64,000 nucleotides of DNA, taken from the NCBI GenBank assembly GCA_027920525.1, contig CP115858.1, positions 372,001 through 436,000 of the forward strand, read 5' to 3'. The DNA is from Chryseobacterium daecheongense (lineage in GTDB: Bacteria; Bacteroidota; Bacteroidia; Flavobacteriales; Weeksellaceae). Shown one piece after another: positions 1-38,724 of the stretch. Made by a program: the position numbers and the translations under genes. Each line of letters begins with the position of its first letter. Position 1 is the stretch's first letter. The notes beneath the pieces were generated by a model, which was not told the DNA's origin, did no database searches, and saw only the letters and a program-made list of their open reading frames with translations.

Positions 1-1000
1 TTATCCTGACAGGCAGAAGAACTGCAGATCAGGAAATAGAAAAACTACTGTCTGAAATTCCGGGAACAGTATATTATTCATGTGATATTACAGATTATCA
101 GGACACAGAGCGATTGCTTACAACCATCAAACAAACCTATCAGGGATTGAATGGAATTATCCATAGTGCCGGAACGTTGAAAGATAGTTTTATTCTGAAT
201 AAAACCCAGGAACACTTGCAACAGGTGCTTCATCCTAAAATTACAGGAGCGAGGGTATTAGATGAAGTAACAAAAGATGAACCTCTTGATTTTATGATGT
301 TCTTTTCATCCGTTGCAGCAGTAACGGGCAATGCAGGACAATCAGATTATGCGTCGGCCAACACCTATCTGGATCATTATGTGGAATACCGAAATGAAGC
401 CGCTGCCAAAGGACAGAGATCAGGAAAAACAATCAGTCTGAACTGGCCATTATGGAAATCCGGTGGAATGCAGGTAAGTGCAGCAGGAGAAAAATACCTT
501 GAAAGTCAGTTTGGTATGATTCCAATGGCAACAGAAACTGGTCTTGAGATGTTCGATCTTATTCTGAAAGCCCAGTCAGGACAATATGCGGTGTATTTCG
601 GTAAAGAAGAAGGAATTTCCAGAACGACAGGTAATGCAATTGCAGGGACCACTCAAAAAAATGTTTCAGTACCTAAAAGTACAAATGAAAATGTAGGTGG
701 TTCAAAAACGGCGAAAGATAAGATCGTTAGAGAAGTGAGTGAAATTGTAGCAAAACTGCTTAAAATGGAGGTTTCTACCGTTGACCAGGAAACAGAATTT
801 GGTGAATATGGTTTTGATTCCCTTTTAATGACCCAGTTTACCAGTGCATTGAATAATTTCTATGATCTTAAATTAATGCCTACGGTATTTTATAACTATC
901 CGGCTATTGGAGTATTTTCAGAATTCCTGATCAAAGAATATCCAAACCTTGCAATAGAAAGTGAAAATGATTCAAGGGCTGTAACTCCAGCTCAGGATTC
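1..1000 (+). other. Module remnant: KR (C-terminal part)-ACP
   Basis: The KR catalytic Ser and Tyr are present (FFSS...SDYASAN, around 300-360). The HSAG motif is followed by an Asp three residues on, as in KRs giving D-configured (B-type) alcohols. The ACP has a GFDSL site with Ser at codon 819. The KS and any DH of this module lie before the window. Confidence 0.85.
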
Positions 1001-4000
1001 AACTCGATTTGATCAATTTTCCGGGCGTAAAAACAGAAAACATTCTTCACAATACAACAGCTCACCGGTAAAGGCAGCTCAAAAGCCAGCTGAAGAGGGA
1101 ATTGCTATTATAGGGATCAGCGGACGTTTTCCGGGATCACCTGACATCAATACTTTCTGGGAGAGAATTAAAAATAATGAAGACCTGATCACAGAAATCC
1201 CTGAAGACCGATGGAGCTGGCAGGAATATTACGGAGATCCTCAAAAAGAAAGCCGCAAAACCAAAGCAAAATGGGGTGGATTTATCAGCGATATCGACAA
1301 ATTTGATCCTTTATTTTTCAATATTTCGCCTAAAGAAGCTGCTTTAATGGATCCTCAGCAAAGAATTACCCTTGAAGCTGTATACCACGCTTTGGAAGAT
1401 GCAGGAATAGCCACTTCCGCATTAAGAGGAACCAATACCGGAACCTTTATCGGAGTATCTGCGGTAGATTATTCCATGTTATTGAATAACGGAACCGATC
1501 TTACAAGTCTGGCACAGTTTTCCACAGGTGCCGCTCATTCGATATTGGTGAACAGAATTTCTTATCTATTGGATATTCATGGACCAAGTGAGCCGGTGGA
1601 TACTGCGTGTTCAAGTGCATTAATTGCCATTCATCGAGGCGTAGAACACATCAGAAACGGACATTGCGATATGGCCATTGCAGGTGGAGTCAACGCCATA
1701 CTGTCTCCGGAACTGACGCTTTCCTTCAGCAGTGCAGGGATGTTGAGCGAAGATGGAAGATGTAAAACTTTTGATCAGCGTGCCAATGGTTATGTCCGTG
1801 GAGAAGGAGTGGGAATTGTGATCCTCAAGTCTTTAAGCAAGGCTGTAGCTGATGGTGATCATATCTACGGAGTGATCCGTGGAACGGCTGAAAACCATGG
1901 TGGAAGAGCTAATACGTTAACCTCTCCGAATCCCAATGCACAAAGAGATCTATTGGTAAAAGCATACCGAAATTCAGATATAGATCCACGTGATATCAGC
2001 TACATAGAAGCACATGGGACAGGAACAGCGCTGGGTGATCCTATAGAAATTGAAGGGCTTAAGCTTACATTCAATACATTATATGAGGATAAAGGACTAC
2101 AGCAAACACAAAAAGCCTATTGCAGCATTGGTAGTGTAAAAACAAATGCCGGACATCTTGAGTCTGCAGCCGGAATGGCCGGATTAGCAAAAGTATTGAT
2201 GGCTATGAAGCATAAAGTTTTACCTGGTAATCCGCATTTGCAAAATCCAAATGCCTATTTACAAATGGAAAATACCCCATTCCGTTTACAGAAAGAAACT
2301 ACAGAATGGACCAGCGAAGGAAATAAGCCACGAATTGCCGGGATCAGCAGTTTCGGATTTGGAGGAGCCAATGCACACATCATTATTGAAGAATATCAGT
2401 CATCAAAATTGACTCATAAAATAGATGGCAGTGCTATTATTCCATTATCGGCAAAGACAAGGGAGCAACTTCAACAACAGATTATCAATCTTAAGAACTA
2501 TCTGGAGCTGAATCCTCAGCTTGATATACATGATGTCGCTTATACTTTGCAAAATGGGCGTGAAAAGATGAAGGAAAAAGCGGTATTTATAGCAGCTAAT
2601 ACCAAAGATCTTATCAACCTTCTTTCTGAAAAAAGAGATCTGAATGCTCCTGTTTGCAAACCGGAAGAAAATAATAGAGCTTTAATTTCAACGGCAGAAA
2701 ACTGGTTAAGCGGAGTATTAAAAGATTGGTCTGCTTGTTATCTGGGTCAGAAACCAGCTAAAATAAGTTTACCAGTGTATCCGTTTGCACGTAATCGTTA
2801 TTGGATTCCGGAAGGAAAAAAGACAGTAGCCGTTTCTGCAAAAGAGCCAGATCAGGAACTATTTGAATATTCTTCAGAAAACATAACAATAGAAGAAAGA
2901 ACTGAACCTGTTGATGTAAAGACTAAAACAGCTCAGGATAACAGCTGGCTGATGGTAAAATTAATTCAGATCGCAGCAGCAACGATTGTGTTGCCTGAAG
3001 AAGATTTTGATACGACCACTCAGTTTAAAGACTATGGTTTTAATTCCATTATGGGTGTTGAATTGGTAAACAATATCAATTCCGAACTGAATATCACCAT
3101 CAAGGCAACTGATTTATACAGTTATCCTAACATTAATTTAATGACGGATTATGTGTTAAAGAATTTTTCTGAAGAATTGCAGGGTCTTGTTGAGGTTCAT
3201 CACTATGCTATTGCAGATAAAACCATATTAACCGAAAAGAAAAGTCAGGCAGCTGAAAATAAAGTTTCAAAGCATTCTGATTCCACCGCTGAAATTGCGA
3301 TTATAGGAATCAGTGGACAATTCGGAACGGCCAATGATCTGAATGAATACTGGAAAGTATTGGCAGAAGGGCAGTGTCTTGTCAAAGAGATAAAGGATGA
3401 GAAATGGACGAGAGATGATAACAATGTGGAAGGACAGAAAAGATGGGCAAGCTGTTTGGAAAATCCGGACTATTTTGATCCTTTATTCTTTAAACTTTCA
3501 GGGTCTGAAGCAGAAATGATGGATCCTATGCAGCGGTTATTCCTTGAACATAGCTGGAAAGCGATTGAAGATGCAGGAATTGACTCAGACTCTCTTTCAT
3601 CTCTGAAATGCGGTGTATATGCAGGAGCAGGACACAGTGATTATATTGCTGGAACTGAAGGAACATTACCTTCGGCGCTTTGGGGAAATTCAAGTGCGAT
3701 ATTGGCCTCAAGAATTTCTTATTTCCTTAATTTAAAAGGACCTGCAATAGCCGTCAATACAGCTTGTTCAAGCTCTTTGGTTGCAATGGATCTTGGATTT
3801 AACAGTCTTCAAAGAGGCGATACAGATCTTGTTTTGGCGGGTGGTATCAATATTATCAATTCTGCCCATTCACATGATATGGCGGTAAGAGCGGGTATGC
3901 TGTCTGCAGATGGACGATGCTACACCTTTGATAGTAGAGCTAATGGCTTTGTGATGGGAGAAGGTGTTGGTGTTGTTGTTTTGAAAAGGCTGGCAGATGC

Positions 4001-7000
4001 AGAACGGGATAACGACCGTATTTATGGAGTGATCAAAGGAAGTCTGACCAACCAGGACGGAACAACCAATGGTATTACCGCTCCAAGTGTAGTATCTCAG
4101 GAAGAACTGGAGAAAGAAGTATATGACAGGTTTAATATCAATCCTGAAACCATCACCTACGTGGAAGCTCACGGAACAGGTACGGGATTAGGAGATCCTA
4201 TAGAATTTGAAGCTTTAAATGCATCATTCAGAGCGTACACCAATCAACAGAATTTCTGCAGTCTGGGAAGCGTGAAAACAAATATAGGTCATGCTTTAGA
4301 AGCTGCCGGAGTGGCTAGTGTTTTAAAAGTACTTCTGGCAATGAAACATAAACAATTGCCGCCTAGCATTAATTATGAGAAGCCTAATGCGTTAATCAAT
4401 TTTAAAGGGAGTCCATTTAAAATACAGGATACACTAACCGATTGGAATACACCGGCTAATACGAAAAGAAGAGCGGCCATCAGCAGCTTTGGTTTTAGTG
4501 GAACCAATGCGCACATGGTTATTGAAGAATACATCCCTCAGGAAAAGAAAGAGATTAAGCATAGCGGAGATGTATTGATCATCTTGTCAGCTAAAAGCAG
4601 AGAACAGTTGATTGTACAGGCTGAACAGCTTGTTAAACATATTAAAAATGAACCGTTCATCAGCTTATATGATATTGCTTACACCCTTCAAATTGGAAGA
4701 TCAGCGATGGAAGAAAGATTGGCTGTTCCAGCGAACACAATTGAAGATTTAGTTAACCGTCTTACTGATTTTACAATCGGAAAAGGAGGGCATTATTTTA
4801 CTGGAAATATCAGACAGCATAAAAAAGAAGTCAACCGATCTTCCGAAGCATCTGCGATTCAAAATGCTTTAGCCAATAAATTCTGGACAGCTGTAGGAGA
4901 ATATTGGGTAAAAGGATTTCCTGTAAAATGGAATGTATTATATCAGGAAACGAAGTGTAATAAAGTTAGTCTACCTCATTATCCTTTTGCAAGAGAAAGA
5001 TATTGGCTGAAATCTGAACAGAAAATAGTTACAAGTTCTGCTATTGCACATCCTTTATTGCATCAGAATAATTCCAGTCTAAAGAATTGTTTGTTTAGCA
5101 GTCTGCTGAATGGAAGTGAATCTTTTTTAAGAGATCATAAGATCTTTGGAGAACAGGTTCTGCCTGGAGTCGCTTATCTTGAAATGGCCCGTGTAGCAGG
5201 TGAGATGGGTGCTGAGGTTTCAATAGCTCAATTAAGAGAAGTGAACTGGTTACAACCTGTAAAGGTTAATACTGAATCAGTACAACTTCACATTAATATT
5301 GAAACTTTAAATAATGAATGGACTTATAAAATCTATTCAGGTCCTAACGAGAAACAACTGCATGGACAGGGAATCATGGGTTCGGTTTCCAGCTCAGCTC
5401 CTCAGATCAAAAACATCAATAAGTTACGAAATAGCTTTATTTCAAAAATGGATAAAGCAGCCTATTATGAATTGTTCAGATCTATTGGATTGGACTATGG
5501 AACAACCTTCCAGGGAGTTCAGGAGGTTTGGTATAATGAGGAGTCTGCATTATCAAGAATTGAGCTAACTCCAGAAGCTGGATTTACTTTATCCCCTGGA
5601 ATGATGGATGGCGCATTACAAACCTGCATGGCGATCAGTCTTTCTGATCAAAGCCAGCAATTGATGTTGCCATTCAGTGTAAGGGAGATCAATATCTATA
5701 AGCCTTTATCACAAGAAATCTGGTGTTATGTGAGAAAAAACAGTTCAGGTAAACAATCCAGCAGTTATGAGATTGAAATGCTGAATCAGCAGGGTGAGGT
5801 TCTGATCAGTTTCACTGAGTTAGTGGTTTTAACATTAGAAAACAACAACAGTACATCTTCGGTGGCTCATGAGAATAAACGTCAGAATACGGAAACTTCA
5901 GAGAGTGGTATTGGATTGTACCTGTATGCTAATGAATGGCAGAAAGCAGATGTAGAGGAATTTAATTCAAAAAGAACAAACACATCAGTTGCTCCTTTGG
6001 TATTTATGGCGGGTGGTTCTGCAGTATTAGCAGAAAAGCTGGAAGAGAGCCTGGAATGTGAAGTAAAGATGATTCATGAAAATGCTCCGGAAGAAACTTT
6101 TATTCAGATTCTTGAAGAAATACAGCAAAGAAAACCTGTAGGGCAAATGATTCAATTGGTATATCCTGCCGGAGAAGAAATGGATTATAGTTTTCTTTCA
6201 GGATTATTGAAAACAGCAGTACAGGAAAGCTTAGTGTCCGCAGGAAAACTAATTGAAGTAGACAATCTGTCGATTAACGGATTGAATGAATTAGTGAGGA
6301 TTTTACAAATTGAACAGGAAAATACCGATGCTGAAGTTCGATATCACCTTGGAAGAAGAGAAGTAAAAAAACTGAAAGTTTTAAACATAAACGACAATCA
6401 AGAGGTAAAAACAGCCGCTAAAGAAAATGGTGTTTATCTGATCACTGGAGGTGCAGGCGGATTGGGATTATTATTTGCAGATTACTTCAATCAGACTGCA
6501 GGCACAAAAGTAATATTGGTCGGCAGAAGTGAGCTTAATGCTTCACAAAAAGGTAGATTAAGAAAATTGTCCAGCACCGCTTACGAACAATGCGATATTA
6601 CTGATCTTGGAAGCGTAACGGCTTTAATGAAAAAAATCAAAAATGAATATGGCCGTATTGATGGTATTATTCATAGTGCTGGGGTAACCAGAGATAGCCT
6701 GATGATTCACAAGACAGCAGCTGAGGTTAGGGATGTTTTCTCTGCTAAAGTAAAAGGAGCTAAAAACATTGATCTGGCAACCAAAAATGAAAATCTTGAT
6801 TTCACGGTTTATTTTTCATCATTAGCGGGAATATTCGGAAATACAGGACAGTCGGATTACGCATCAGCTAATTTGTGGCTGGATCATTTTGCTTCACATC
6901 GCGAAATGGAACGGCTTCGTGGAAAAAGAACAGGAAAGACAGTAAGCATCAACTGGCCATTATGGAAAGAGGGCGGAATGCAGATCAGCACAGAACACGA

Positions 7001-29800: not shown

Positions 29801-30027
29801 TGGAAGAAAAGCTGGATCAAACTTTAATTTTCGTAGAGGCAGATAATACGAAACTTTCAGGCGAAGATTGGGGAGATCAGGGAGCTGCTGCAGGCTGGGA
29901 TCAATATTTCAGCGATGTGCAGATCATCCCTACAGAGGCCAATCACTTTACCATTGTGAATACACCATATTGTACAGAATGGTTAACTAAAATAAATACC
30001 GAAGAAAATATAAAACAGACACTTTAA
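9493..30027 (+). CDS. Giant trans-AT PKS-NRPS hybrid with terminal thioesterase
   Basis: A 6844-residue multienzyme that finishes the assembly line. Domain order: DH (missing its first strand)-KR-ACP | KS4-DH-KR-ACP | KS5-DH(dead)-KR-cMT-ACP | KS6-DH-KR(Ser lost)-ACP | C-A-PCP-TE. No AT or ER is built in; both activities are supplied by downstream genes. The KSs have the full Cys-His-His set. The adenylation domain carries a cysteine-type pocket code and the chain ends with a GxSxG thioesterase. KS3, KS4 and KS5 are close relatives, while KS6 pairs with KS2, fitting the different chemistry of the upstream modules. The ATG at 9493 is preceded by an in-frame TGA at 9484, so this start is forced unless the gene break is an artefact. 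The product is probably a polyene acyl-cysteine derivative; I do not recognise the compound. Confidence 0.97.
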   Translation: MTKQHQFNSIYNGKEFFLTDHKVLGTKVLPGVTYLEMARAAGEYVAGKDITQLRDMSWLQPVKISDSPVQLYMNVVEQGGGLTYEIFSGETDAQLHTKGILGTADQQSPEIRDINHLRDLFKDSGSHKEGADYYKIMNSIGLEYGKTFQGIQEIFYHGKAALSRIALSAAEGFVWTPGMMDSALQTCMGISLADQNQQLMLPFSVREMNIYQALPEEIWCYVTKNRSGKLANSYDIELLNNFGELVIRFSEFVVVPMEKNAKTNDNVNVIPELHLYNYNWKAEALDEVIEELSKTETGDAPLVVLAGGSAVLAEKLNERLECEVKTIGEGTPESVFIQVLAEIQNKKSAQLKIHFVYPIADELEYGFISAMLKTAVQENQILQGKTIGVEGISINELDELTEILQEEQRNHEPEVRYQSGQREVRSLTGISDKNPGLKTEIKENGVYLITGGAGGLGLIFADYLNTIPGTQLILTGRSELNPTQQEKIKGFRNAQYERCDVTDLKSVTDLIKKIKNTYGHLDGVIHSAGTTRDSLITKKTTSEIHDVFSAKITGAQHIDQATKDEQLDFMMFCSSLAGVFGNTGQADYAAANAWLDYFANHREKERNQGKRTGKTLSINWPLWKEGGMQIDADQEKYMASHFGLWSMPTSDGISAFETLLNNISSQVVVVYGEEDKLNAWMNGSSTSKTSQKKTGGNDKALYAASMIYLGDVMTKELRMKNHKLEPDTSFEQYGIDSIMITKLTNRLESIFNNIPRTLFFECQTLAEVTEFFVDVYPEKLIELTGVKTVLPEETTVISKSINEGVKSDIRSASQVVEKSTSRNSSVVNEPIAIIGLSGKYPQAKNLSEFWDNLKSGKDSITEIPANRWDLTDFYDEEKGKAGKSYSKWGGFIDEIDHFDPLFFNISVREAELMDPQARLFLQTAWETFEDAGYPKKKLEGRRDKDATQPQVGVYVGVMYEEYPLFGAEENAKGNFVNPGGSISSIANRVSYFFNLNGPSMAVDTMCSSSLTAIHLACESIQNGNCTMALAGGVNISVHPNKYLMLSQGMFVSSKGRCESFGEGGEGYVPGEGVGAVLLKSYSQALADGDRIYGLIKGTALNHGGKTNGYTVPNPKAQASVIKAAMKKAGVKAEDFSYIEAHGTGTSLGDPIEIAGLNKAFESKNKQFCSIGSVKSNIGHCESAAGISGLTKVLLQMQHRQLVPSLHSTILNPNIKFENTPFKVQQELEEWPVVNNKPRLAGISGFGAGGSNAHLIIEEYVSENVAYRQQMPLVIVLSAKDEERLKVIVENLKKHIENHSEINLDDLAYTLQTGREAMEERLAFIAEDREDLLSQLSCYLEKNTQNLYIGNIHNDQLGISLEGKSGMAYLESIIREKESHSLAQLWVKGVNIDWNLIYNDAKPSVISLPSYPFANERYWFPKGDGELVLKAGSKLHPLLHTNTSNLREQQFTSIFTGKELFLTDHLVHDVKTLPGVAYLELAREAGEQSLQAKITKLKEVSWLHPIQINDKEQTVFTSVFTSENEIEFEVYTQDDAEEVHCRGIVSTDELFIPEQKNIKTIKAGLAHTISGSDCYTLFQKSGLGYGKSFRGIREMYYDEDEVLSRVSLPKDRALVLTPGVLDSALQSCIGMQLAKSTKEILLPFSVAEIELYQDLTDELWCHIKKNKAGKRISSYDIDLLNNQGQVVLRFKELVLLPVNGFVANDSVNDTEMAPKGLSLLADHWKYQPEPVQSLRDTMPIIILAGGSGTMADDLYNHFSLTVTAINTVKEEDFFMDMLSLAKTVMPHKKATHIVVACSQDQYYQYGFITGLLKTLTQENPRITGKLISIEDQAFQNLEELGGILMNEKQNPDHEVRYSAGKREVRSMENRLIDSSTAPVHIKSDGVYLITGGAGGLGLIFAQYLNKTEGATIILTGRSPQLNPSQQKAVDQLDNALYYPCDISDESAVNDLIQNIIEKHTKLDGVIHSAGVIRDSMILQKTKKEVKEVFAAKIKGTRNLDMATKDLPLEFMITCSSVAGVNGNAGQSDYASANTWMDNYAHYRESERMNGRRYGKTLSINWPLWKEGGMQISAEAEIYMMQHFGLAPMPTDVGIKAFESLMNSGITQGMVLFGDTKEEKVLVEKPEEISYSPTETSVNNDSLYNASIIYLRGLLAKELRMPEEKLKAEVPFEQYGIDSVLVIRLSNCLQDVFGKLPRTLFFEYLTLKELCGYFMEAHRSLLLELTGLAVVKASAPLTKEVIKTERPVDVQNRRQRFSMVQQQSGNKNINEDIAIIGISGRYPDANNLEEFWENLKIGKDCITQVPADRWNADEMYHEEKGRPGKSYSKWGGFMNDIDKFDPLFFSISPREAELMDPQERLFLQTVWETIEDAGYTRDSIRSEDAETGIAKKIGVYAGVMYEEYQLFGAEERMKGNFVTPAGIASSIANRISYFFNFNGPSMAVDTMCSSSLTAIHLACNDLIVGNTDVAVAGGVNISVHPNKYLMLSQGRFVSGAGRCESFGMGGDGYVPGEGVGAVLLKRVSEAIKDGDHIYGLIKGTALNHGGKTNGYTVPNPKAQAAVIKAAIEKSGVKASDLSYVEAHGTGTSLGDPIEIAGLNRAFETTEKQFCSIGSVKSNIGHCESAAGISGLTKVILQLKHQQLVPSLHSAVLNPDIDFENSPFKVQQQLEAWPTNEGKPRIAGISGFGAGGSNAHIIIEEYAALPARKLDYKMPVIIALSAKHASRIAIQVENLKNFLEKNSQADLYDVAYTLQVGREEMEERLAFIATDKEDLMVQLSDYLDQKTMNPIRGNIRKKDENYIQHTKDLLSIAMAWVNGVDTDWGSLYPKGFPSRISLPAYPFIKDRYWIPIVNNGIVQYGQNNLHPLLHSNDSDLNEQKFISTYTGKEDFLTQCEITNYKELPSSALLELAREAGERSLRQRITQLKNVSWVDPIRVNGVPANVQINLFNAGNEIGYEIYTKHKENKTQLNGQGLLNTEFQQPHDQKNIEDLIQYYQYSIEKEALYNLFAKAGKTYAADFQGVEILYFDKLDALAKIVLPVTDEFILSPGVLDNIVQTSTGWLLSQGEQSLYQPSDAAEITIFGTLPSVIWCHATFEKKQSGAFCCQMDIMDEEGTVLLHFRDLVLSPQVTSQSTSGKASSIAHKPMWDRIITQSEASVLIEGKQILVTGGSDPVFGEELGKWLMNQGAEVTATETLDAVPDDVAGVYLLQGLTEIGDDSLMDDHSARELAVFTSIKQLLDAGIKDLKITVFTSNTQKVLPDSKVTSAGSGMIGMTGALIKEQPQWSVNRIDLDLSALKNPAKINWADLFTISLDNKENAVTALRNGHYYRQHLYPIVLPEVNSSTFRNGGTYVLLGGAGGLGKATTEYLVKNYQAKIIWLGRRVADEAIMMAQEEIAKLGQKPEYYSCDATDPKQVEKAYKLIKENHSEVHGLFHSAIVLHDMLLKNMTEDDFKKAFMPKSLSSQNLVQTFKNEPLDFICFYSSAQSLVHAPGQANYASGCSFKDSYALNVNHLLNIPVRIINWGYWGEIGIVAADGYKDKMKKAGIESIETEEGMHLLETVINSNEQQIVALKLSAATAAAMPTMHHEKEISQVKSSSVLQMEEADALMYPKADEQDQIFEMLCCKGILKVLLQLGLEEKQTTGQTISSLRSQLSISDKYEQLFFVLLHLLETKGYVTVKDAQIFVAEETKDALNDFDFEQQMSELVMKGQEYRPHGTLLKICLESFIEIITEKIQATSVMFPGGSMDYVSGIYKGNAQSDYFNDLLTGIIKNTVAASIPYLKPGEKIRILEVGAGTGGTSQFVFRALEPYKDHLFYLYTDLSHSFLHYAEQQFKTMAPYLETAILNIESDPSDQQIELGSYDIVIGANVVHATKNMAVTLNNIKALLKQDGLLIMNEIARTEIFTTLTFGLLDGWWLYEDRGIRLNGSPGLSSESWQNVLKETGYLQAVSYPQGEVLSQQIICATSDGKIISEIKQPEKKHEIKMVPPVIQQTTAAPKQKMPVMKKTIDNNSLIQQLTKIAADLIKLPPGDFDIECQFMDYGFDSILSMELIKNINEKLKVDLKSTDIFSYGTIQQLAEHLMQNFSEALQVEVAVETSVQASVREVETPLKTRFTASVKAQEPVYRHENDIAIIGMSGQFGAANDLDAFWEVLKNGKSLIGDVPADRWQGYTQNEGTKWKGSFLRDIDKFDPVFFKISGNEAEMMDPQQRLFLEHCWKAVEDAAINPKSLKGSKCGVYAGVAPSDYNIRECEEASVMWGNSSAVLAARISYFLDLKGPAISVDTACSSSLLAMDMGCSSLQKGETDLIIAGGINIMTTPGFYSLASRAGMMSSTGQCHTFDKKADGFVPGEGVGVVIMKRLADAERDGDRIYGVIIASLTNQDGASNGITAPSVLAQQELEKEVYKKFNINPETISYVEAHGTGTSLGDPIELDALTNAFRKYTEKTQYCRIGSVKTNIGHTLVAAGVAGVLKIMLSLKHKQLVPTLNFEECNPLIDLVNSPFQVGSELCDWKTENHTPRRAAISSFGFSGTNVHMVIEEYPENKVSSISTEPALIIISAKNAERLKNQVSKLLSWLERNPRTNIQDIAYTMQVGREPMEDRLALLAADQADLMLQLDGFLKGNTENLMTGNIKKDKADFLLEGGAGKAYIDYAIAHGEIKSLAMLWTKGITINWDLLYQEQRPNKISLPTYAFARQSYWIPEVKSTVNRQQTSYLHPLIHRNTSTVKSFQFSSTFTGNEEFLSDHKIQDEIILPGVAYLEMARISGTQLLSEKITVLKNIAWMSPVRVNGKAEEVHIRLKSINEELSYEIYSLNGQEQLHSQGRISTQSLPVKSSFDLTSIQNRMSESVDRATCYDIFRQMGLQYGNSFMGIEHMHYSSSEALSKITLPKLQGFSVSPGLLDSALQSCMGMGFIDKKPVTQLPFSVKEVVFYEELPLNIWSYARKSKANQGNGAVITYDVDILDDHGKVLMSFHDFVTLPVDGTEKTEWSDAATDACIFTMNWEECAAESFAGHENEAIPMVLLVDSPAQLAENLKTELGIETTTIDGAVAEDYLIDVMSVIKKRALEKNTSHLLIVCCIADYLDYGFISGLLKTASLENPGITGKIISVDRLSVKDAPELTSILQTELGTADAEIRYESGLRKVKKLNEINISDNDGLKIKENGVYLIIGGAGGIGRLFATHINKIPKTKVILTGRGQLDEEKEAFIAGLAHGDYFSCDVNNKEEVVSLLDQIKEKYHRIDGIIHSAGVTQDSLIVNKIPDEVEKVFAAKVNGVKNIDEATKDEALDFMVLFSGLAAITGNAGQADYAAANVYLDNYAVYRESERNKGKRQGKTISINWPFWKEGGMVMDQSSQEYLDKQYGLSPLPNSVGINIFDQLLGSRYTQGIVTYGKVDKIRSQLLNRLVVKQKQVQAHAMPKSAELQDKVASKLLEITAQLLKLSESDIERDEKLSDYGFDSILLIKYSNELNDFYNTDLTPAVFYNYPTINDLADFLLEEYQEKITAVHQPEALSDSTINDVEEIQEEESPRYPLSEGQKGLWFIQQLEPENTNYNVPVSFIIPGTIDYNVMKKAFQLTLDEYPVLKSRFLTDETGEIYNQIQNVSEVEVDDQELAEGQNINEVSWNLVRKPFNLETELPVRLYVRRDLAAHNNYILLVFHHIIFDGMSSSVFIASLFEKCQKLLNGEKIVAKEPDFAYFSYVEWEKNFILSKKGEKSLAYWKKNLSGTLPIINLPYDLYKQSSTKTTTIGIERIKLGEEKVDQLKELGKKLKVNLSVLFSGIYTMLLHKLTTEEDLLILMPTAGRPKKEYENSIGYYVNMMILRNRVSGNQTFAELVKNIQKGMINGMSHAAYPLPKLLSDLNLDRSGNRETPFKVSFIYQNIFDEILTGGGSGIEIYDEVYQETAHVYSLEIQDLRKEIIVSLKYDQDVFSPGLIQQHMGYFMELMNGVLENTARQIKTYEVLSKEEINYFLYERNDTAVEYPKHKTLSDLFEEQVLKTPDQIAVVHDGRRITYAELNEMANRLAGALVKSGLPANAPVAMVSHKSVEQVWGVLGILKAGGHYIPVKGSLPENRMNELIKQTESTIVLVQPDYMDKVSCSEEVKIILLEESTFAEESSDHETVKVPDTELAYIIFTSGSTGKPKGVMIDHRGAVNTLYDMNARFGITSDDKVFGISDLNFDLSVYDIFGTFACGATLILPLETEGLNPDIWLRYVKEEQVTVWNSVPQIVNLLIERQEDTAEMHLSSLRMYWMSGDWIPLDVPGRIKKINPDSAVISLGGATEGSIWSIHYPIGEIDPSWKSIPYGYPLGNQEMYILDTNLSPCPVNVPGDIYIGGIGVAKGYHQDPEKTAASFIEHPGMQKQLYRTGDIGCQHPDGFIVFLGRQDGQVKINGFRVELGEVETILQLSPLVKQGLVLTVEDDNRNKRLVAYVVANDVFDKEEMQKHLRAHLPEYMVPSIFIEIDKIPLSSNGKVDRKALPSVDPNDINQSEFTAPSDETEHKLAEIWIRLLKLNRVGIHDDFFDVGGNSLTMIQLAHKINTAFDKDIQLIHIMKNPTIAGIKILINGNEESGEESVLTLREGNMEEVTFVIPGALGSTEGYFTLAGNLPGEGAVYGLQMKGITADEAPNTSIETMASYNLEQIKQTGVIGGINLLAHSYGGIVIYEMIRQAKELAIEIDKVIFLDCFTDPLSSFNSLEEAQKLGTYFRSLIQFSQPWLSDDAVEELVKQLPQEDYMPFICDTVHTLPAKTVARMWEVFRASISAVYKMEEKLDQTLIFVEADNTKLSGEDWGDQGAAAGWDQYFSDVQIIPTEANHFTIVNTPYCTEWLTKINTEENIKQTL
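11971..16190 (+). other. Module 4: KS4-DH-KR-ACP
   Basis: KS4 Cys is at codon 12508. The DH (about 13795-14590) keeps its His (codon 13882) and DSALQ, but the Gly of HxxxGxxxxP is Asp (codon 13894). The KR (about 15139-15840) has CSSVAG and SDYASAN. The ACP is GIDSV, Ser codon 16021. Predicted outcome: a double bond, if the Gly-to-Asp change is tolerated. Confidence 0.87.
16297..21780 (+). other. Module 5: KS5-inactive DH-KR-C-methyltransferase-ACP
   Basis: KS5 Cys is at codon 16828. The DH fold (about 18079-18880) has lost the catalytic His: Cys occupies it (codon 18166), and the motif Gly is Asn. A long KR follows (about 18960-20220) with GGAGGLG, Ser (codon 19939) and Tyr (codon 19978), but the Asn of YASAN is Cys. 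A C-methyltransferase (about 20330-21400) shows the SAM motif LEVGAGTGG and GANVVHAT. ACP GFDSI, Ser codon 21628. Predicted outcome: an alpha-methyl unit with a retained beta-hydroxyl or beta-keto group. Confidence 0.85.
21880..26035 (+). other. Module 6: KS6-DH-KR lacking catalytic Ser-ACP
   Basis: KS6 Cys is at codon 22351. The DH (about 23641-24440) has its His (codon 23731), Asp for the motif Gly (codon 23743) and DSALQ. The KR (about 24979-25680) binds NADPH by sequence (GGAGGIG) and keeps Tyr and Asn, but the catalytic Ser, 13 residues before the Tyr, is Gly (codon 25381). ACP GFDSI, Ser codon 25873. If the KR is dead, the last polyketide unit keeps its beta-keto group. Confidence 0.83.
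26086..30027 (+). other. Terminal NRPS module: C-A(Cys)-PCP-TE
   Basis: The C domain has HHIIFDG (26473-26493), the ordinary condensation motif and not the DxxxxD of cyclisation domains. Aligning the A domain by eye to PheA gives the pocket code D-L-Y-N-W-S-L-I-W-K, one position from the known cysteine code with Leu at position five. The PCP is GGNSL (Ser codon 29083). The TE has AHSYGG (Ser codon 29470) and a late ANHF histidine. Expected: amide bond to cysteine, then release by hydrolysis or cyclisation. Confidence 0.85.
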
Positions 30028-30057
30028 TAATCACAATAAACACACAATAAGACATAT

Positions 30058-30147
30058 GAAACACCCATGTCAAAAATTATTTTAACACACAAGAAAATGA
30101 TTATGGGTGTTCCATATGACCATAAAAACAATAAATATTAGCATATG
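30058..30147 (+). repeat. Intergenic repeat element, copy A
   Basis: About 90 bases before the AT-ER gene, ending in its start codon, match copy B at 33404-33490 over almost their whole length. Copy A has a perfect 9-base inverted pair (30060-30068 with 30103-30111). An inner TGTCAAA/TTTAACA pair is less perfect than in copy B. The role is unknown; a leader RNA structure or a recombination scar are both possible. Confidence 0.75.
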
Positions 30148-32433
30148 AAAGCAGTAATGTTTCCGGGGCAGGGATCCCAATACAAAGGAATGGGAAAAGA
30201 TCTGTTCAATCAGTTCAGAAAAGAAACAATTTTAGCATCAGAAATATTAGGGTACGACCTTGAAGAATTATGCATCAAAGATCCTGAACGTCAGTTGGGG
30301 AAAACACAATTCACACAACCTGCATTATATACGGTAAATGCATTTACACATTATGCCAACTCATCAGGAAGTAAACCCGATTTTTTCATTGGACACAGTC
30401 TGGGGGAATATAATGCCCTGTTAGCAGCAGAAGCATTCAGCTTTGAAACCGGATTAAAGCTGGTTCAGAAAAGAGGAGCTTTGATGGCTGCGGCATCCGG
30501 AGGTGGAATGGCAGCGGTATTGGGACTTAAAGTGGATGCCGTACAAAAACTTTTAGCAGAAGGAGGATACAGCGATATAGATATCGCCAATATCAATACT
30601 CCGACTCAGATTGTAATAGCGGGACCTCAGGATTCCATTGACAGGATCGTGCAGGAATTTGAAGAACGCAAGATTAAAATATTTCCTCTTTTTGTAAGTG
30701 CTCCTTTCCATTCAAGATATATGAAACCTGCGGCTACAGAATTTAAAGATTATCTTCAAAACTTTAGTTTTTCAGCCTTAAAGACTCCTGTGATTGCAAA
30801 TGTTACAGCAAAACCTTATCCTGATGGACAGATCATTGAGCTTTTGGCTCAGCAGATTGAAAGCTCTGTACAGTGGACAGATACCATCCGGACTTTAATG
30901 GGGAAGGGAGTTACCGAATATGAAGAAACAGGAAGTGTTATTTTAACTAAAATGGTCAATGAAATTACAGAAAACTGTACGCCATTGATCCATGAAGAGG
31001 AAATTGTAATCGAAACAGCAAAACCTCATGTTAACGGATCAGTGAATGGTAAGGTAAATGGGGAAGCTTCAAAAAAAGAATGCCTTTCCACCCGCTTGGG
31101 AAGCCATGAATTCCGTAAAGATTATGGTCTTAAATACGCATACGTAGCAGGATCTATGTACCGAGGAATTGCTTCACCTCAATTAGTAGTACGCTTGGGA
31201 AAAAACGGATTCATGGGATTTTTGGGAACAGGAGGAATGCCATTGGCAGAAATAGAAAAGAATATTATTAAAATTCAGGAAGAACTGACCCATGGAGAAC
31301 CGTATGGCGTTAACTTCCTTCATAATTTAAATGATCCGGCTTCTGAAATGAAAGCTATCGAGCTTTTACTTCTTTATGGAGTAACGAATATTGAAGCTTC
31401 GGCCTATATGCAGATGATGCCTGCTTTGGTGTATTACAGATTAAAAGGTTTACAGAAAGGACCAAACGGTGAAGTAATATGTAAGCATAACATTATTGCC
31501 AAAGTTTCCAGACCAGAGGTTGCAGAAGTGTTTATGCGTCCCGCCCCTGAAAAGATTGTGAGACATCTTCTGGAAGAAGAGTTGATCACTCCCGAACAGG
31601 CAGCACTTTCCAAAAAGGTACCGATGAGTTATGATATTTGTGTGGAGGCAGATTCAGGTGGGCATACCGATCGTGGAATTGCTATGGTTTTGTTACCGTC
31701 TATCCAACGTTTAAGAGCAGATATTATGGCGGAATATGCTTATGATAAAGGAATACGAGTTGGATTGGCAGGAGGAATAGGTACCCCTCAGGCAGCAACA
31801 TGTGCGTACATCATGGGAGCCGACTTTATAGTAACAGGCTCTGTGAATCAATGTACGGTAGAAGCAGGAACCAGCGATGCCGTAAAAGACCTTTTACAGG
31901 ACATCAATGTACAGGATACCGACTATGCGCCGGCAGGAGATATGTTTGAAATTGGTGCTAAAGTGCAAGTGCTTAGAAGAGGAGTGTTGTTTGCTGCAAG
32001 AGCAAATAAGCTATACGCTTTATACAATCAGTACAACAGTTTAGATGAGATCCCAGAAAAGACCTTAACGCAGTTAGAGAAAACGTATTTCGAAAAAAGC
32101 ATTAGTGAAATATGGAACGAAGTACGCGAATATTGTAGAAATGTGGGATCTGAGGCTGAGATTACCAAAGCGGAGCAGAATCCTAAAAATAAAATGGCAC
32201 TGGTCTTCCGTTGGTATTTTGGGTATACCAATAGACTGGCTTTTGAAGGAAATATTGAGAATAAAGCCAATTTCCAGATCCATACAGGTTCTGCACTTGG
32301 AGCATTTAATCAGTGGGTGAAAGGTACTCCGATGGAAAGCTGGAAAAAACGCCATGTTGATGAGATTGGAGTCAATATTATGGTAGGAGCAGCAAAATTA
32401 TTAGAAAACACAGCATTAATGGTAAATAATTAG
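30145..32433 (+). CDS. Trans-acting malonyl acyltransferase fused to a PfaD-type enoyl reductase
   Basis: Residues 1-290 form an acyltransferase: GQGSQ, GHSLGE with Ser85, the malonyl-binding Arg110 and His189 (PFHS). It would load malonyl units onto the ACPs of the two AT-less PKS proteins. After an Asn/Gly-rich linker (about 290-310), residues 315-762 are an FMN-dependent enoyl reductase of the PfaD/nitronate monooxygenase type, with GLAGGIGTP and IVTGSVNQ motifs. No module has its own ER, so this protein would reduce chosen double bonds in trans. The AT-ER fusion is typical of trans-AT clusters (PksE type). Its stop codon abuts the start of the next AT-like gene, indicating one operon and translational coupling. 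Confidence 0.95.
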   Translation: MKAVMFPGQGSQYKGMGKDLFNQFRKETILASEILGYDLEELCIKDPERQLGKTQFTQPALYTVNAFTHYANSSGSKPDFFIGHSLGEYNALLAAEAFSFETGLKLVQKRGALMAAASGGGMAAVLGLKVDAVQKLLAEGGYSDIDIANINTPTQIVIAGPQDSIDRIVQEFEERKIKIFPLFVSAPFHSRYMKPAATEFKDYLQNFSFSALKTPVIANVTAKPYPDGQIIELLAQQIESSVQWTDTIRTLMGKGVTEYEETGSVILTKMVNEITENCTPLIHEEEIVIETAKPHVNGSVNGKVNGEASKKECLSTRLGSHEFRKDYGLKYAYVAGSMYRGIASPQLVVRLGKNGFMGFLGTGGMPLAEIEKNIIKIQEELTHGEPYGVNFLHNLNDPASEMKAIELLLLYGVTNIEASAYMQMMPALVYYRLKGLQKGPNGEVICKHNIIAKVSRPEVAEVFMRPAPEKIVRHLLEEELITPEQAALSKKVPMSYDICVEADSGGHTDRGIAMVLLPSIQRLRADIMAEYAYDKGIRVGLAGGIGTPQAATCAYIMGADFIVTGSVNQCTVEAGTSDAVKDLLQDINVQDTDYAPAGDMFEIGAKVQVLRRGVLFAARANKLYALYNQYNSLDEIPEKTLTQLEKTYFEKSISEIWNEVREYCRNVGSEAEITKAEQNPKNKMALVFRWYFGYTNRLAFEGNIENKANFQIHTGSALGAFNQWVKGTPMESWKKRHVDEIGVNIMVGAAKLLENTALMVNN

Positions 32434-33405
32434 ATGACAGAAAACGAGTTTAAAAAACATATTGTATTCTTATTTTCCGGACAGGGAAGCCATTATCGCG
32501 GGATGGGACGGGAATTGTACGAACAGCACCCGAAATTTAAAAGCTGTCTTGAAAGGTTGGATCAAATGGTACAAAAGCAGCTCAACTACTCATTGATTGA
32601 TGAACTGTATACCAACACAGAAGAATCGTTCGATGAGTTGTTGATCACCCATCCCGCAATTGTTGCTGTTGAGATTGCTTTGTATGAAGTTCTATTGGAA
32701 ATGGGAATTAAACCGGATTTTATATCGGGTAACAGTTTGGGTGAATTTGCGGCAGGTGTTGCTAATGGAGTATGGGATGCTGCCAGTGCTGTTGAAGCTG
32801 CAATAGAACAGGCTAAATCCATCTGCCGTGCTGATATTGAAGGCGGTATGCTGGTAGTTTTTGCCGAAGAAATAAAATTGAGAAGTCTCTATAAACAACA
32901 TCAGCTATTTCTTGCATCAGATAATTTTAAAGGACATTTTACTTTATCAGGTAAAACGTCTCACTTAGAAGTATTTGAAAGCAAATTGTCTGAAGAAGGA
33001 ATGAGTACTTTTCGGCTTCCTGTCAATGTTCCTTTTCATTCTCCATTAATGAAAGCTGCAAAAGCAGATTTCGATCAGTACAGCAGTTCAGCTAGTGCTT
33101 TTAAAGCTCCATCCAAAGGATTTATATCGGGTTTTGAAGCGATAGAAATCAATGAGCTGACAGCTGATTATTTCTGGCAGGCGATAAGTCAGTACTCTAA
33201 TTTTACAAAAATAATTGATCTTCTGGAAGCCAAAGGTCCCTGTCTGTATATAGACATGGGACCTTCGGGAACCAGTGCTGCATTTGTTAAATACAATCTG
33301 CAACCCGGAACTTCTTCTGAGGTACTAACCATTATGAGTCCTTACAGAAGAGAAATTGAGCAGCTGGAAAAATTACAGCAAAAAATAAAAGATACAGTAG
33401 TATGA
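32434..33405 (+). CDS. Acyltransferase-like protein, probable acyl hydrolase (editing AT)
   Basis: A single AT fold of 323 residues with GQGS, nucleophile Ser101 and His202 (PFHS). Two positions differ from malonyl transferases: the residue before the Ser is Asn (GNSLGE), and the Arg that binds the malonyl carboxylate is Ala127 by ungapped alignment with the upstream AT. Loss of that Arg is expected for the acyl hydrolases of trans-AT clusters, which clear stalled acyl groups from ACPs. The ATG follows the previous stop codon with no spacing. A second AT for an uncharged acyl unit is the alternative. Confidence 0.85.
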   Translation: MTENEFKKHIVFLFSGQGSHYRGMGRELYEQHPKFKSCLERLDQMVQKQLNYSLIDELYTNTEESFDELLITHPAIVAVEIALYEVLLEMGIKPDFISGNSLGEFAAGVANGVWDAASAVEAAIEQAKSICRADIEGGMLVVFAEEIKLRSLYKQHQLFLASDNFKGHFTLSGKTSHLEVFESKLSEEGMSTFRLPVNVPFHSPLMKAAKADFDQYSSSASAFKAPSKGFISGFEAIEINELTADYFWQAISQYSNFTKIIDLLEAKGPCLYIDMGPSGTSAAFVKYNLQPGTSSEVLTIMSPYRREIEQLEKLQQKIKDTVV

Positions 33406-33490
33406 ACACCCATGTCAAAAATTCTTTGACACCCTGGGAAGTGATGATGGGCATTCCATCTGATCTTAAAAAAATAAATATAAACAGATG
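33404..33490 (+). repeat. Intergenic repeat element, copy B
   Basis: It overlaps the stop codon of the AT-like gene and ends in the start codon of the metallo-hydrolase. It matches copy A at 30058-30147. An inner perfect hairpin, TGTCAAA (33413-33419) and TTTGACA (33425-33431) with a five-base loop, is clearer here. The outer inverted pair has two mismatches. Confidence 0.75.
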
Positions 33491-34141
33491 AAAGTAGAAG
33501 TTTTCCTCGTATCTGGTCAAGGTATTAAAAATCAATGTTACCTCATTCACGATAACCATTCCGGAATATTGATCGATCCGGCATGGGACTATGAGTTGAT
33601 CAGCAGTTTTTTGAAAGACAACCATATTACATTGAGAGGGGTTTTATTGACTCACTCTCATTACGATCATACAGATCTGGCCTCCACCTTTGCAGTATAT
33701 TATGGGGTTCCGGTATATATGTCAGCCATTGAAATCAGACAATATGAATTTACATGTCCTAATCTCATCGCTATCCAGCATTTGCAGGATGTCATGGTAG
33801 GTCAGTTTAGTGTAACGGCATTACTGACTCCGGGACATACGAAAGGAAGTGTTTGCTATCTTATTGATAGGCATTGTTTTACAGGAGATACTATTTTTAT
33901 TGAAGGAGTGGGCATCTGTGACAATAGTGGAATCAATTCCCTTTATGATTCCGTACAGTTTATAAAACAATATTTACCCCAGCAGGCCTTAATCTGGCCG
34001 GGACATTCGTTTGGTGAACAGCCGGGAAAAGAGCTAAGTTTTCTACTGCAGAACAACATCTATTTCCTTTTGAACAGAAGAGATGCTTTTACAGATTTCA
34101 GGATGCGGAAGAATCAGCCAGACCCTTTTTCTTTCAAATAA
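33488..34141 (+). CDS. PksB/glyoxalase II-like metallo-beta-lactamase-fold hydrolase
   Basis: 217 residues with the zinc motif HSHYDH (His56, His58, Asp60, His61), then His117 (PGHTKGS), Asp134 (TGDT) and His173 (WPGHS). These are the ligands of a glyoxalase II-type di-metal site. Small hydrolases of this kind (PksB/BaeB) accompany the bacillaene-type trans-AT clusters and probably act on acyl thioesters. The position between the AT genes and the phosphopantetheinyl transferase supports a cluster role. The exact substrate is not known; a general thioesterase is the alternative. Confidence 0.88.
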   Translation: MKVEVFLVSGQGIKNQCYLIHDNHSGILIDPAWDYELISSFLKDNHITLRGVLLTHSHYDHTDLASTFAVYYGVPVYMSAIEIRQYEFTCPNLIAIQHLQDVMVGQFSVTALLTPGHTKGSVCYLIDRHCFTGDTIFIEGVGICDNSGINSLYDSVQFIKQYLPQQALIWPGHSFGEQPGKELSFLLQNNIYFLLNRRDAFTDFRMRKNQPDPFSFK

Positions 34142-34183
34142 TAATGCTAATTTTATGCGTTTATTGACGATGAACTTATTGCT

Positions 34184-34927
34184 ATGAATGTATCCATACA
34201 AAATAATAGTGCAGTTGAAAAATTAGCTTTACAGAGAGCAGATGGTTTGTATCCTGCTGCTATTGCAGTAACACAGCACTCGCTGGCTCACTTGAAAGAA
34301 ATACGACATTCTTTTTTGCATCAGGAAGAACTGGACTTTTTTGGTACATTAAAGTTACCTAAAGTTCAGCACAGTTATTTGCTGGGTAGATACGCTGCCA
34401 AAACTGCATTAAGTGCATTTATGAATGAAGTTGTTTTACCAGATACAAAAATAGTTTCCGGAATATTCCAGCAGCCCGTTCTTCATTTATCCGGAGCGGG
34501 AAATATCCAATTAAGTATTTCTCATACTACAGAAATGGGGATAGCTGTTGTATTTCCGGAAGGACATCCGATGGGGGTAGACGTAGAAGCTGTTAGTGCA
34601 GAGCAATCAGATACCATTAAAGGAGTTATTACTCCTCATGAGAAAGATAAGCTTTTGGATATTGATGGTGATGAAAACAAAAGTCTTACTGTTTTATGGA
34701 CGATTAAAGAAGCCCTGTCCAAAGTCCTGAAAACCGGTCTTATGACTCCTTTTCATTTATATGAAATTGAGGATATTGAGCATAAAGGAAATGTTATCGT
34801 TTGCAGCTTTATCAATTTTCCTCAATATCAATCCATATCCTGGGTGTCAAAAGGACATGCATGGTCCATTGTATTACCTAAAAAAAGTAGTTTGGATACA
34901 GCAGTGATTTCACGATTGTGTTTGTAG
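34184..34927 (+). CDS. Sfp-type 4'-phosphopantetheinyl transferase
   Basis: 247 residues with the family signatures SISHT (111-115), GVDVE (Asp133 and Glu135 for Mg2+) and WTIKEALSK (172-180, catalytic Glu176). It transfers phosphopantetheine from CoA to the Ser of ACP and PCP domains and so would activate the seven or more carrier domains encoded upstream. It is the last gene of the PKS operon, 42 bases after the hydrolase, and converges on ppk1 with 5 bases between the stop codons; no separate terminator hairpin is visible there. Confidence 0.95.
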   Translation: MNVSIQNNSAVEKLALQRADGLYPAAIAVTQHSLAHLKEIRHSFLHQEELDFFGTLKLPKVQHSYLLGRYAAKTALSAFMNEVVLPDTKIVSGIFQQPVLHLSGAGNIQLSISHTTEMGIAVVFPEGHPMGVDVEAVSAEQSDTIKGVITPHEKDKLLDIDGDENKSLTVLWTIKEALSKVLKTGLMTPFHLYEIEDIEHKGNVIVCSFINFPQYQSISWVSKGHAWSIVLPKKSSLDTAVISRLCL

Positions 34928-37839: not shown

Positions 37840-38724
37840 ATGAAAAAAGGGTTTATGTTTTTTTTGCTGGTCATTTTTATGACGTCGTGCAGGAGTACTT
37901 CTGTGGAAACAAATTTAACAAATGACATCAATAAATTGATAGATGGCAAAAAAATGGACATAGGAGTTTCTGTCAGAAATGATGAAGGAAATGAATTAGT
38001 TAAGATTAATAATGATAAGAAATACAGGCTATACAGTGTATCAAAATACTTTTTAGGTCTTTATATTTTACATCTTGTAGATCAGGGAAAGATGAATCTG
38101 AATCAACAGGTTGTATTTTCTAAAGAAGATTTAAGACCAGATACCTATAGCCCTCTGAGAGATAGTATTCCCCAAGGAACAACAATGTCTCTTAAACAGT
38201 CCGTCTCTTTTATGCTTAAACGTAGTGATAATAATATATTCGATAAGCTTGCGAATTATGTTCCCGGAAGCTTTGGCGGCCTCAATACTTTTATCCATGA
38301 AATTCACATGGGAAATCTGGGAGATTTCAGTATTATGTATGATTATACCAGTCCTTTAAAAGACTTTGAATCAAATAGGATTACCCCTGGTTTTGCTACA
38401 AAAATCCTTTATCAGGTTGAAAAGAAGAAAATATTATCTCACGAAAGTTTTGATCTGCTAAAAAACGGAATGGAACATTCGGTAACAAGTACCAGAATAC
38501 AGGGATTGATACAAAATAAAACAAAATCATTTCATAAATCAGGAACATCAGGCAGGGACAATGGTGTGCTCCGGGCATGTAATGATATTGGAATTGTAAA
38601 TCTTCAAGATGGTAAATCTTTCAGTATTGCCGTATTTATATCCGACTCCCATGAAGACAATAAGACCAATGATGATGTAATAGCAAAAATAACGGACTTA
38701 GTGTATAGTAAGTTGAACAAATAA
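37840..38724 (+). CDS. Class A beta-lactamase-like lipoprotein
   Basis: 294 residues with a lipoprotein signal peptide (lipid-anchored Cys17). Class A active-site motifs are present: SxxK at 66-69 (SVSK), SDN at 129-131 and KSG at 233-235. The sequence around them resembles the PER/subclass A2 group common in Bacteroidota. The omega loop is abnormal: aligned to PER enzymes, the deacylating Glu166 position falls in SIMYDYTSP, with no Glu. Without that residue an acylated enzyme would turn over poorly, so real beta-lactam hydrolysis is doubtful. It may be a penicillin-binding or other serine hydrolase. Confidence 0.82.
   Translation: MKKGFMFFLLVIFMTSCRSTSVETNLTNDINKLIDGKKMDIGVSVRNDEGNELVKINNDKKYRLYSVSKYFLGLYILHLVDQGKMNLNQQVVFSKEDLRPDTYSPLRDSIPQGTTMSLKQSVSFMLKRSDNNIFDKLANYVPGSFGGLNTFIHEIHMGNLGDFSIMYDYTSPLKDFESNRITPGFATKILYQVEKKKILSHESFDLLKNGMEHSVTSTRIQGLIQNKTKSFHKSGTSGRDNGVLRACNDIGIVNLQDGKSFSIAVFISDSHEDNKTNDDVIAKITDLVYSKLNK

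Follow-up and report, generated by a model that had tools for sequence, protein, structure and literature searches.

A trans-AT polyketide–nonribosomal peptide line of Chryseobacterium daecheongense predicted to join a polyunsaturated chain to cysteine

The disorazole synthase of Sorangium consists of a trans-acyltransferase (trans-AT) polyketide synthase (PKS), a nonribosomal peptide synthetase (NRPS) module and a thioesterase (TE), and it handles serine with tandem heterocyclisation domains and an oxidation (Ox) domain (PMC10434194; papers given by PMC number are cited from extracts of their text). The solanimycin cluster of Dickeya solani is likewise a trans-AT PKS–NRPS with a polyene acyl part; it has three PKS modules, uses glycine and dehydroalanine, and includes a metallo-β-lactamase-fold (MBL) protein, SolJ, that is represented by a profile model (PMC10204066). 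Here we analyse a line of this class from Chryseobacterium daecheongense, the 3′ part of which fills positions 1–34927 of a 64,000-nucleotide stretch (the window; bases 372001–436000 of a complete, single-contig 4.86 Mb chromosome, GenBank CP115858.1). Like disorazole synthase it combines a trans-AT PKS with an NRPS module and a TE, but the module calls for cysteine and has an ordinary condensation (C) domain, and neither heterocyclisation domains nor a serine assignment was found; it also differs from the solanimycin cluster in its number of PKS modules and in its amino acid. The synthases of bacillaene, difficidin, macrolactin and kalimantacin, names that we assigned to clusters from organism and protein sizes, differ from ours in module order and release. 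In the reading that we favour, at a probability of about 0.7, a ten-module trans-AT PKS and a cysteine NRPS module would build a methyl-branched polyunsaturated chain, join it to cysteine and release it.

No report of a product of this cluster was found in the open-licence literature, it goes unmentioned in the extracts of PMC12181424, PMC9248904 and PMC7930024, and no match of its module order to a known compound was found, as in a preliminary description made from the window. In the extract of a survey of 2,680 Flavobacteriaceae and Weeksellaceae genomes (294 of them Chryseobacterium), trans-AT PKSs are recorded in four genera, Chryseobacterium not being among them, and a hybrid such as ours may have been counted there under NRPS–PKS hybrids (PMC10734526).

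Module order, cysteine module and accessory genes

The preliminary description had placed seven PKS modules lacking AT domains before a cysteine-type NRPS module and a TE, with accessory genes behind. All of the genes that it named were recovered from the open reading frame (ORF) list and by Pfam/NCBIfam scans, and the observation as such is confirmed. Domain order was read from these scans and from their repetition with profiles built from the Chryseobacterium line; domain E-values ran from 7e-10 (weakest acyl carrier protein, ACP) to 2.5e-92 (best ketosynthase, KS), so chance is not an issue. Seven PKS modules are indeed in view, counting one cut by the window edge (modules 4–10), whereas the full line has ten, four of which begin upstream of the window. 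They are followed by one module of C, adenylation (A), peptidyl carrier protein (PCP) and TE domains, and by genes for an AT fused to an enoylreductase (AT-ER), an acyl hydrolase, a PksB-like hydrolase and a 4′-phosphopantetheinyl transferase (PPTase). No AT domain was found in any Pfam-scanned piece of the two giant proteins, which the pieces cover whole, in agreement with the trans-AT type first assigned. Gene 1 spans genome positions 355674–381482 (8602 aa) and starts at window position −16326, 16.3 kb upstream; the window holds its last 3159 codons, comprising the end of module 4 (KR-ACP), modules 5 and 6 and the KS of module 7. The layout is as follows (window positions; DH, dehydratase; KR, ketoreductase; MT, methyltransferase).

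1–9482, plus strand: 3′ part of PKS gene 1 (ORF 3–9482, open at its 5′ end; ORF list, Pfam/NCBIfam)
9493–30027, plus strand: PKS–NRPS gene 2, 6844 aa, with DH-KR-ACP of module 7, modules 8, 9 and 10, and C-A-PCP-TE
Upstream of the window, plus strand: module 1, KS-DH-KR-ACP-(DH-like)-ACP
Upstream of the window, plus strand: module 2, KS-DH-KR-ACP
Upstream of the window, plus strand: module 3, KS-DH-ACP, without KR
KS-DH upstream and KR-ACP in the window, plus strand: module 4, KS-DH-KR-ACP, cut by the window edge
1104–3155, plus strand: module 5, bare KS-ACP, with the KS triad Cys-His-His intact
3294–7415, plus strand: module 6, KS-DH-KR-ACP, DH and KR catalytic residues intact
7599–11805, plus strand: module 7, split, with KS on protein 1 and DH-KR-ACP on protein 2, residues intact
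11977–16125, plus strand: module 8, KS-DH-KR-ACP, residues intact
16303–21738, plus strand: module 9, KS-DH-KR-MT-ACP, DH dead (His to Cys), KR with Asn to Cys
21880–25947, plus strand: module 10, KS-DH-KR-ACP, DH intact, KR with catalytic Ser to Gly
26086–29970, plus strand: module 11, C (HHIIFDG), A (DLYNWSLIWK, cysteine), PCP, TE (AHSYGG)
30145–32433, plus strand: AT-ER, a FabD-type malonyl-AT (GHSLGE) fused to a PfaD-family ER
32434–33405, plus strand: AT-like protein, GNSLG, malonyl-binding Arg absent
33488–34141, plus strand: MBL-fold hydrolase, SolJ-like (NF041804, 175.9 bits, under the cut-off of 350)
34184–34927, plus strand: PPTase (Pfam/NCBIfam)

The best single-stretch match among PDB chains (433 bits) is the bacillamide synthetase BmdB, which we take to activate cysteine. 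The A-domain code of our NRPS module was read by hand on GrsA numbering, at what we presume to be the code positions and with Lys517 assumed, as DLYNWSLIWK. The same code is printed in the paragraph of PMC12283262 on Cys-activating domains, and the cysteine call made in the preliminary description is sound. The C domain carries the ordinary HHxxxDG motif (HHIIFDG; Pfam Condensation, 290.7 bits) rather than that of a thiazoline-type cyclisation (Cy) domain, and thus an amide, not a thiazoline, is expected.

The AT-ER exceeds the cut-offs of both FabD (305.4 against 260.9 bits) and PfaD (660.4 against 449.25 bits), and with GHSLGE and an Arg at the malonyl-binding place it provides the nearby free-standing malonyl-AT expected of a trans-AT line. 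The MBL-fold hydrolase, which scores half of the SolJ cut-off, is presumably PksB/BaeB-like. The AT-like proteins of our line and of Chitinophaga pendula both have the motif GNSLG and lack Arg at the aligned position; acyl hydrolases of the PksD/PedC type are recognised by the absence of the malonyl-binding Arg and by a Ser without preceding His (PMC11775670), and by these marks our protein is best read as one of them.

Incoming substrates and catalytic residues

Neighbours of each KS were drawn from a set of 803 KSs, each recorded with its preceding module; the set combined our own proteins with loci L014–L092, four reference clusters and database proteins >1500 aa. Our proteins and eleven orthologues of them were excluded from the neighbour lists. 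KSs that follow a DH-KR-ACP module made up 37, 36 and 37 of the nearest 40 for KS7, KS8 and KS9, and 30, 28, 29 and 29 for KS2, KS3, KS4 and KS5. These seven group with trans-AT KSs by incoming substrate; KS6 and KS10 are mixed. A leave-one-out control of the neighbour rule covered 542 KSs whose preceding module was complete, using ten neighbours from other proteins only, none >85% identical. The DH-KR class was recovered in 221 of 232 cases and 221 of its 293 predictions were right, against a base rate of 232/542; right calls numbered 86 of 115 for KR modules and 30 of 51 for MT modules. In a 92-row tree, KS7–9 share a clade with three KSs that follow DH-KR modules (100/99); with weak support (82/40), they adjoin one KS each of bacillaene and kalimantacin, which likewise follow DH-KR modules. 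KS6 and KS10 stand together (100/100), beside a difficidin KS after MT-ACP and one KS after DH-KR-MT-ACP (100/95). By neighbours and tree alike, the clades fit the olefinic intermediates of the preliminary description.

At the start of the line, KS1 groups with the first KSs of database proteins P0247, P0248, P0267 and P0281 (100/100). The Pfam list of P0281 includes a GNAT domain (PF00583), which by our reading lies within 700 residues before its grouped KS and which is absent from the lists of the other three; this grouping and this domain suggest an acetyl starter. KS3, KS4 and KS5 are 71–74% identical to each other, and for this reason we expect module 3 to deliver a reduced intermediate although it has no KR. 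For lasonolide, the extract of PMC9600693 proposes that a missing KR is supplied by the next module.

Cys-His-His is kept in all ten KSs, His and Asp in eight of ten DH-like domains (modules 1, 2, 3, 4, 6, 7, 8 and 10), and Lys-Ser-Tyr in seven of eight KRs. The intact DH and KR residues of modules 6–8, together with neighbours of KS7–KS9 that mostly follow DH-KR-ACP, uphold the earlier prediction of consecutive double bonds there. The C-methyl group assigned to what is now module 9 also finds its MT domain. DH9 has Cys for His, and a β-hydroxyl is therefore expected at module 9. KR9 carries Cys in place of Asn. A pattern search assigned this variant to 44 KRs out of 469, with 34 unassigned, and profile alignment to 55 out of 469. 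Among the 44, 33 lie directly before an MT, ten at a protein end and one before an ACP; 11 belong to the orthologous family (six of the pre-MT 33 and five of the ten at protein ends). From its distribution the variant looks like a subtype of C-methylating modules and not like damage.

The other altered DH-like domain is the second one of module 1, which has Thr for Asp. It lies after the first ACP (L010 8039–8953), and the replacement is present in 13 of 13 aligned sequences (ours and 12 relatives), as would suit a conserved domain type of first modules with no assigned function. Double-bond-shifting DHs are described in the extract of PMC9600693 as lacking Pro and Gln/His. The domain was considered as an enoyl isomerase and rejected, since all 13 sequences retain Pro and Gln, with Thr in place of Asp; it might act in the manner of a pyran synthase.

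KR10, the exceptional KR, has Gly for the catalytic Ser. Among 469 KRs only six have Gly at this place, each of them a KR10 from the orthologous family, and it is present in nine of nine family sequences checked (ours, P0142, P0156, P0171, P0219, P0223, G468, G500 and C. pendula), so that a β-ketone is possible in the final unit ahead of cysteine. If KR10 is dead, the TE might close a β-ketoacyl-cysteine by Dieckmann condensation to a 5-(mercaptomethyl) tetramate, and the product would be a polyenoyl tetramic acid; in known tetramate lines with TE release, those of heat-stable antifungal factor (HSAF) and ikarugamycin, the module feeding C-A-PCP-TE is indeed unreduced. We nevertheless consider this outcome improbable. 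All nine of these sequences retain the His and Asp of DH10, whereas DH9 has Cys for His in eight and is decayed in the ninth (C. pendula), a difference which suggests that a β-hydroxyl is still made at module 10; moreover, Ala occupies the place of the KR Ser in 17 further KRs.

Orthologous lines and history of the locus

Orthologous synthases were found in four Bacteroidota genera, Chryseobacterium, Sinomicrobium, Pedobacter and Chitinophaga. Over the NRPS region the gene 2 protein is 99% identical to P0142 (Chryseobacterium sp. B21-037), 92% to P0156 (Chryseobacterium sp. JK1), 86% to P0171 (Sinomicrobium), 78% to P0219 (Pedobacter cryoconitis) and 77% to P0223, and domain order is identical in these five database proteins. 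An AT-ER at E ≤ 1e-100 occurs in seven of 173 Chryseobacterium genomes; ours is shared with G468 (Chryseobacterium paridis, 98%) and G500 (95%), and those of the other four are 46–58% identical. In a spread of 395 genomes across the phylum only our own passed 1e-80, and 11 of 79 Chitinophaga genomes passed 1e-150, the best being C. pendula (G598, 72%). The C. pendula line comprises a discrete ACP, a 6634-aa protein ending in KS5-KR5, a 2247-aa protein (ACP-KS6-DH-KR-ACP-KS7) and a 6683-aa protein running to the TE, with AT-ER, AT-like and MBL genes beside it at 72, 54 and 58% identity. Its last protein has the domain order of ours apart from the decayed DH9, which is matched twice; the discrete ACP gene upstream of the synthase is a difference from our line. 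A PPTase counterpart was not found by tblastn of the 90 kb around that locus.

The lines differ at module 5. Gene 1 proteins P0242 (Pedobacter sp. UYP1), P0243, P0244, P0245 and P0246 (C. pendula) all end in KS5-KR5, and in C. pendula the module spans two proteins (KS-KR / ACP), whereas in our strain, G468 and G500 it is a KS-ACP within one long protein, fused and without KR5. On ingroup sequences, the simplest reading is that KR5 loss and gene fusion lie behind the Chryseobacterium state. That module 5 was once a KR-MT module would be suggested by just two observations, the subtype of KR5 and the placement of KS6. A decayed MT before ACP5 of the 2247-aa C. pendula protein was sought and is not claimed: blastp against module 9 gave E 8e-4 over 40 columns, and a 43-sequence MT profile gave 5.3 bits on the first 140 residues, a score exceeded by 3 of 2000 shuffles. 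β-Branching at module 5 was also rejected: the neighbours of KS6 include KSs after ACP-ACP (kalimantacin-like), but the cluster has no HMG-CoA synthase, the sole match in the genome lying far off at 1.81 Mb. Protein P0241, a gene 1 product from a close strain (98% identical), ends at 5667 aa, after the KR of module 4.

G468 and G500 carry the cluster between the flanking genes that it has in our strain, with other genes inserted before it; in G468 the insert of ~65 kb includes NRPS genes and a KS-KR-ACP gene (G468:C2:158960–215200; L119–L122). Genes for a histidine kinase, a LytTR regulator and an outer-membrane barrel stand directly upstream of the synthase in G500, and by sequence the same holds for G468. 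In our strain the G500 regulator has a counterpart in a 25-residue stretch at genome 354732–354806 (L010 2732–2806), with 72% identity and a score of 40.4 bits, where 1000 shuffles reached 25.0 bits at best, and neither the kinase, the rest of the regulator nor the barrel gene was found in the 1 kb before our synthase. A cluster that is decayed or silent, with KR5 and the regulator lost and KR10 altered, would make no product in this strain. The reduction of the regulator to a remnant and of module 5 to KS-ACP would agree with this, as would the state of two other genomes. In the single-contig G500, gene 2 is split over three separate frames (G500:C1:394742–415278), either by sequencing error or by real damage, and the same-species genome G478 has other genes at the locus. 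We none the less think decay or silence an improbable account, because both giant frames are intact in our strain and in G468, while the state of module 5 is common to three Chryseobacterium genomes and that of KR10 to nine of nine family sequences, which argues that neither is recent damage.

G478 also bears on how the locus has changed. The search of the 173 Chryseobacterium genomes found no AT-ER of this kind in G478. One of its contigs keeps our left flank as far as 354662, and a second contig resumes with our right flank at 406062. That right flank takes in the PPTase gene and the final 80 bases of the MBL gene, a remnant of the latter which shows that the trans-AT cluster, or at least its end, was formerly present. 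From both points the sequence passes into other genes (L116 4702–20000, L115 4376–8265), including NRPS genes on both contigs and, next to those on the left contig, a NusG-family gene. A single replacing cluster is likely, although the two contigs stand unjoined; the locus is possibly a site at which biosynthetic clusters are swapped. Carriage on a plasmid was sought by searching 72,556 plasmid records with the NRPS module (tblastn), and no best place exceeded 60% identity. Antitermination by a NusG paralogue was discarded for our strain, where neither of two NusG-family matches in the genome lies near the cluster.

Some further genes were noted. A class A β-lactamase-like gene (37840–38724, 2.9 kb past the PPTase gene; PF13354 over its cut-off, the NCBIfam class A models shown under theirs) is probably outside the cluster, since it also lies beside the locus in G478. 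A stand-alone A-PCP-reductase of 1033 aa, carboxylic-acid-reductase-like, is encoded on the minus strand 15 kb before the synthase (genome 337109–340210; L009 5109–8210). Ten of the 21 KS matches in the whole genome fall in the line described here; two more large KS-bearing frames (2367 and 1426 aa) lie elsewhere in the chromosome, at 1534555–1540546.

Chain release and predicted product

The pathway that we propose would run as follows. The AT of the AT-ER would load malonyl units onto ACPs primed by the PPTase, and KS1 would most likely start from an acetyl unit. Unsaturation would be built by modules 1, 2 and 4, and by module 3 if a neighbouring KR helps. Module 5 would extend without reduction, probably leaving a ketone, where a line of the Chitinophaga/Pedobacter type is expected to leave an alcohol. 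Modules 6, 7 and 8 would introduce three consecutive double bonds, module 9 would add an α-methyl group and leave a β-hydroxyl, and module 10 would form a further double bond, or a ketone should KR10 be dead. The C domain would then join chain and cysteine as an amide for release by the TE, with the AT-like and MBL proteins clearing stalled chains. If all assumptions hold, including a double bond from module 10 and a linear acid, the product would be about C26H33NO5S, with a monoisotopic mass near 471.2 (our own arithmetic, meant only as a guide for mass spectrometry).

The form of release is where alternatives to a linear acid arise. In the TE a GxSxG-type motif (AHSYGG) is present, but the matches of this domain in the PDB are weak (best 7r0x, E 1.2e-10), and its reaction is for this reason not predictable. 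A TE at the end of an NRPS module and the hydroxyl expected from module 9 would permit a macrolactone, the cysteine a thiolactone, and a dimer is conceivable after the example of disorazole, a dimeric dilactone made by a trans-AT PKS–NRPS–TE system (PMC10434194). Nothing in the weak TE matches favours cyclisation, however, and the disorazole type of heterocyclisation domain is absent here; a ring or dimer thus seems unlikely, if a little less so than the tetramate or a decayed cluster. The acyl-cysteine named in the preliminary description remains the likely release form, although not the sole possible one.

Several points weigh against this pathway of chain building and cysteine capture. The loss of the catalytic Ser from KR10 in all nine family sequences checked makes the unit beside cysteine uncertain, module 3 has no KR, and module 1 has its extra DH-like domain of no assigned use. 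The nearest 40 of KS6 comprise 18 KSs after ACP-ACP, eight after DH-KR-MT-ACP, four after ACP and four after DH-ACP, and those of KS10 comprise 19 after MT-ACP with the remainder mixed. Over all classes the neighbour rule was right in 374 of 542 cases, and it was poor for bare ACP (23 of 100) and for DH only (14 of 44); the lists were unthinned, with many near-identical Paenibacillus proteins and with Bacillus velezensis and P. batumici loci present twice. DLYNWSLIWK is also one of five codes that the extract of PMC12283262 links to oxidised (Ox-modified) residues, yet no Cy or Ox domain was found in the cysteine module. Finally, the cluster may be silent in our strain, the regulator pair being gone save for its remnant.

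In a combined view, Chryseobacterium, Sinomicrobium, Pedobacter and Chitinophaga would all have maintained KR10 in a dead state, so that the TE would yield a thiol-bearing polyenoyl tetramic acid derived from cysteine, and the product of module 5 would depend on genus (alcohol in the Chitinophaga/Pedobacter type, ketone in Chryseobacterium) through KR deletion and in-frame gene fusion. We rate it as the least likely of the alternatives considered here.

We regard the line as an orphan within the well-known trans-AT PKS–NRPS class, with a few unusual features; the KR10 lesion, the trimmed module 5 and the TE reaction are the points that could make the product less ordinary. The cysteine code, the triene segment and the C-methyl group are predicted well enough to guide isolation, and KR10 poses a sharp biochemical question. 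The split KS-KR / ACP of C. pendula set against the fused KS-ACP of Chryseobacterium looks like natural module trimming between comparable lines, which would be useful to engineers of PKSs.

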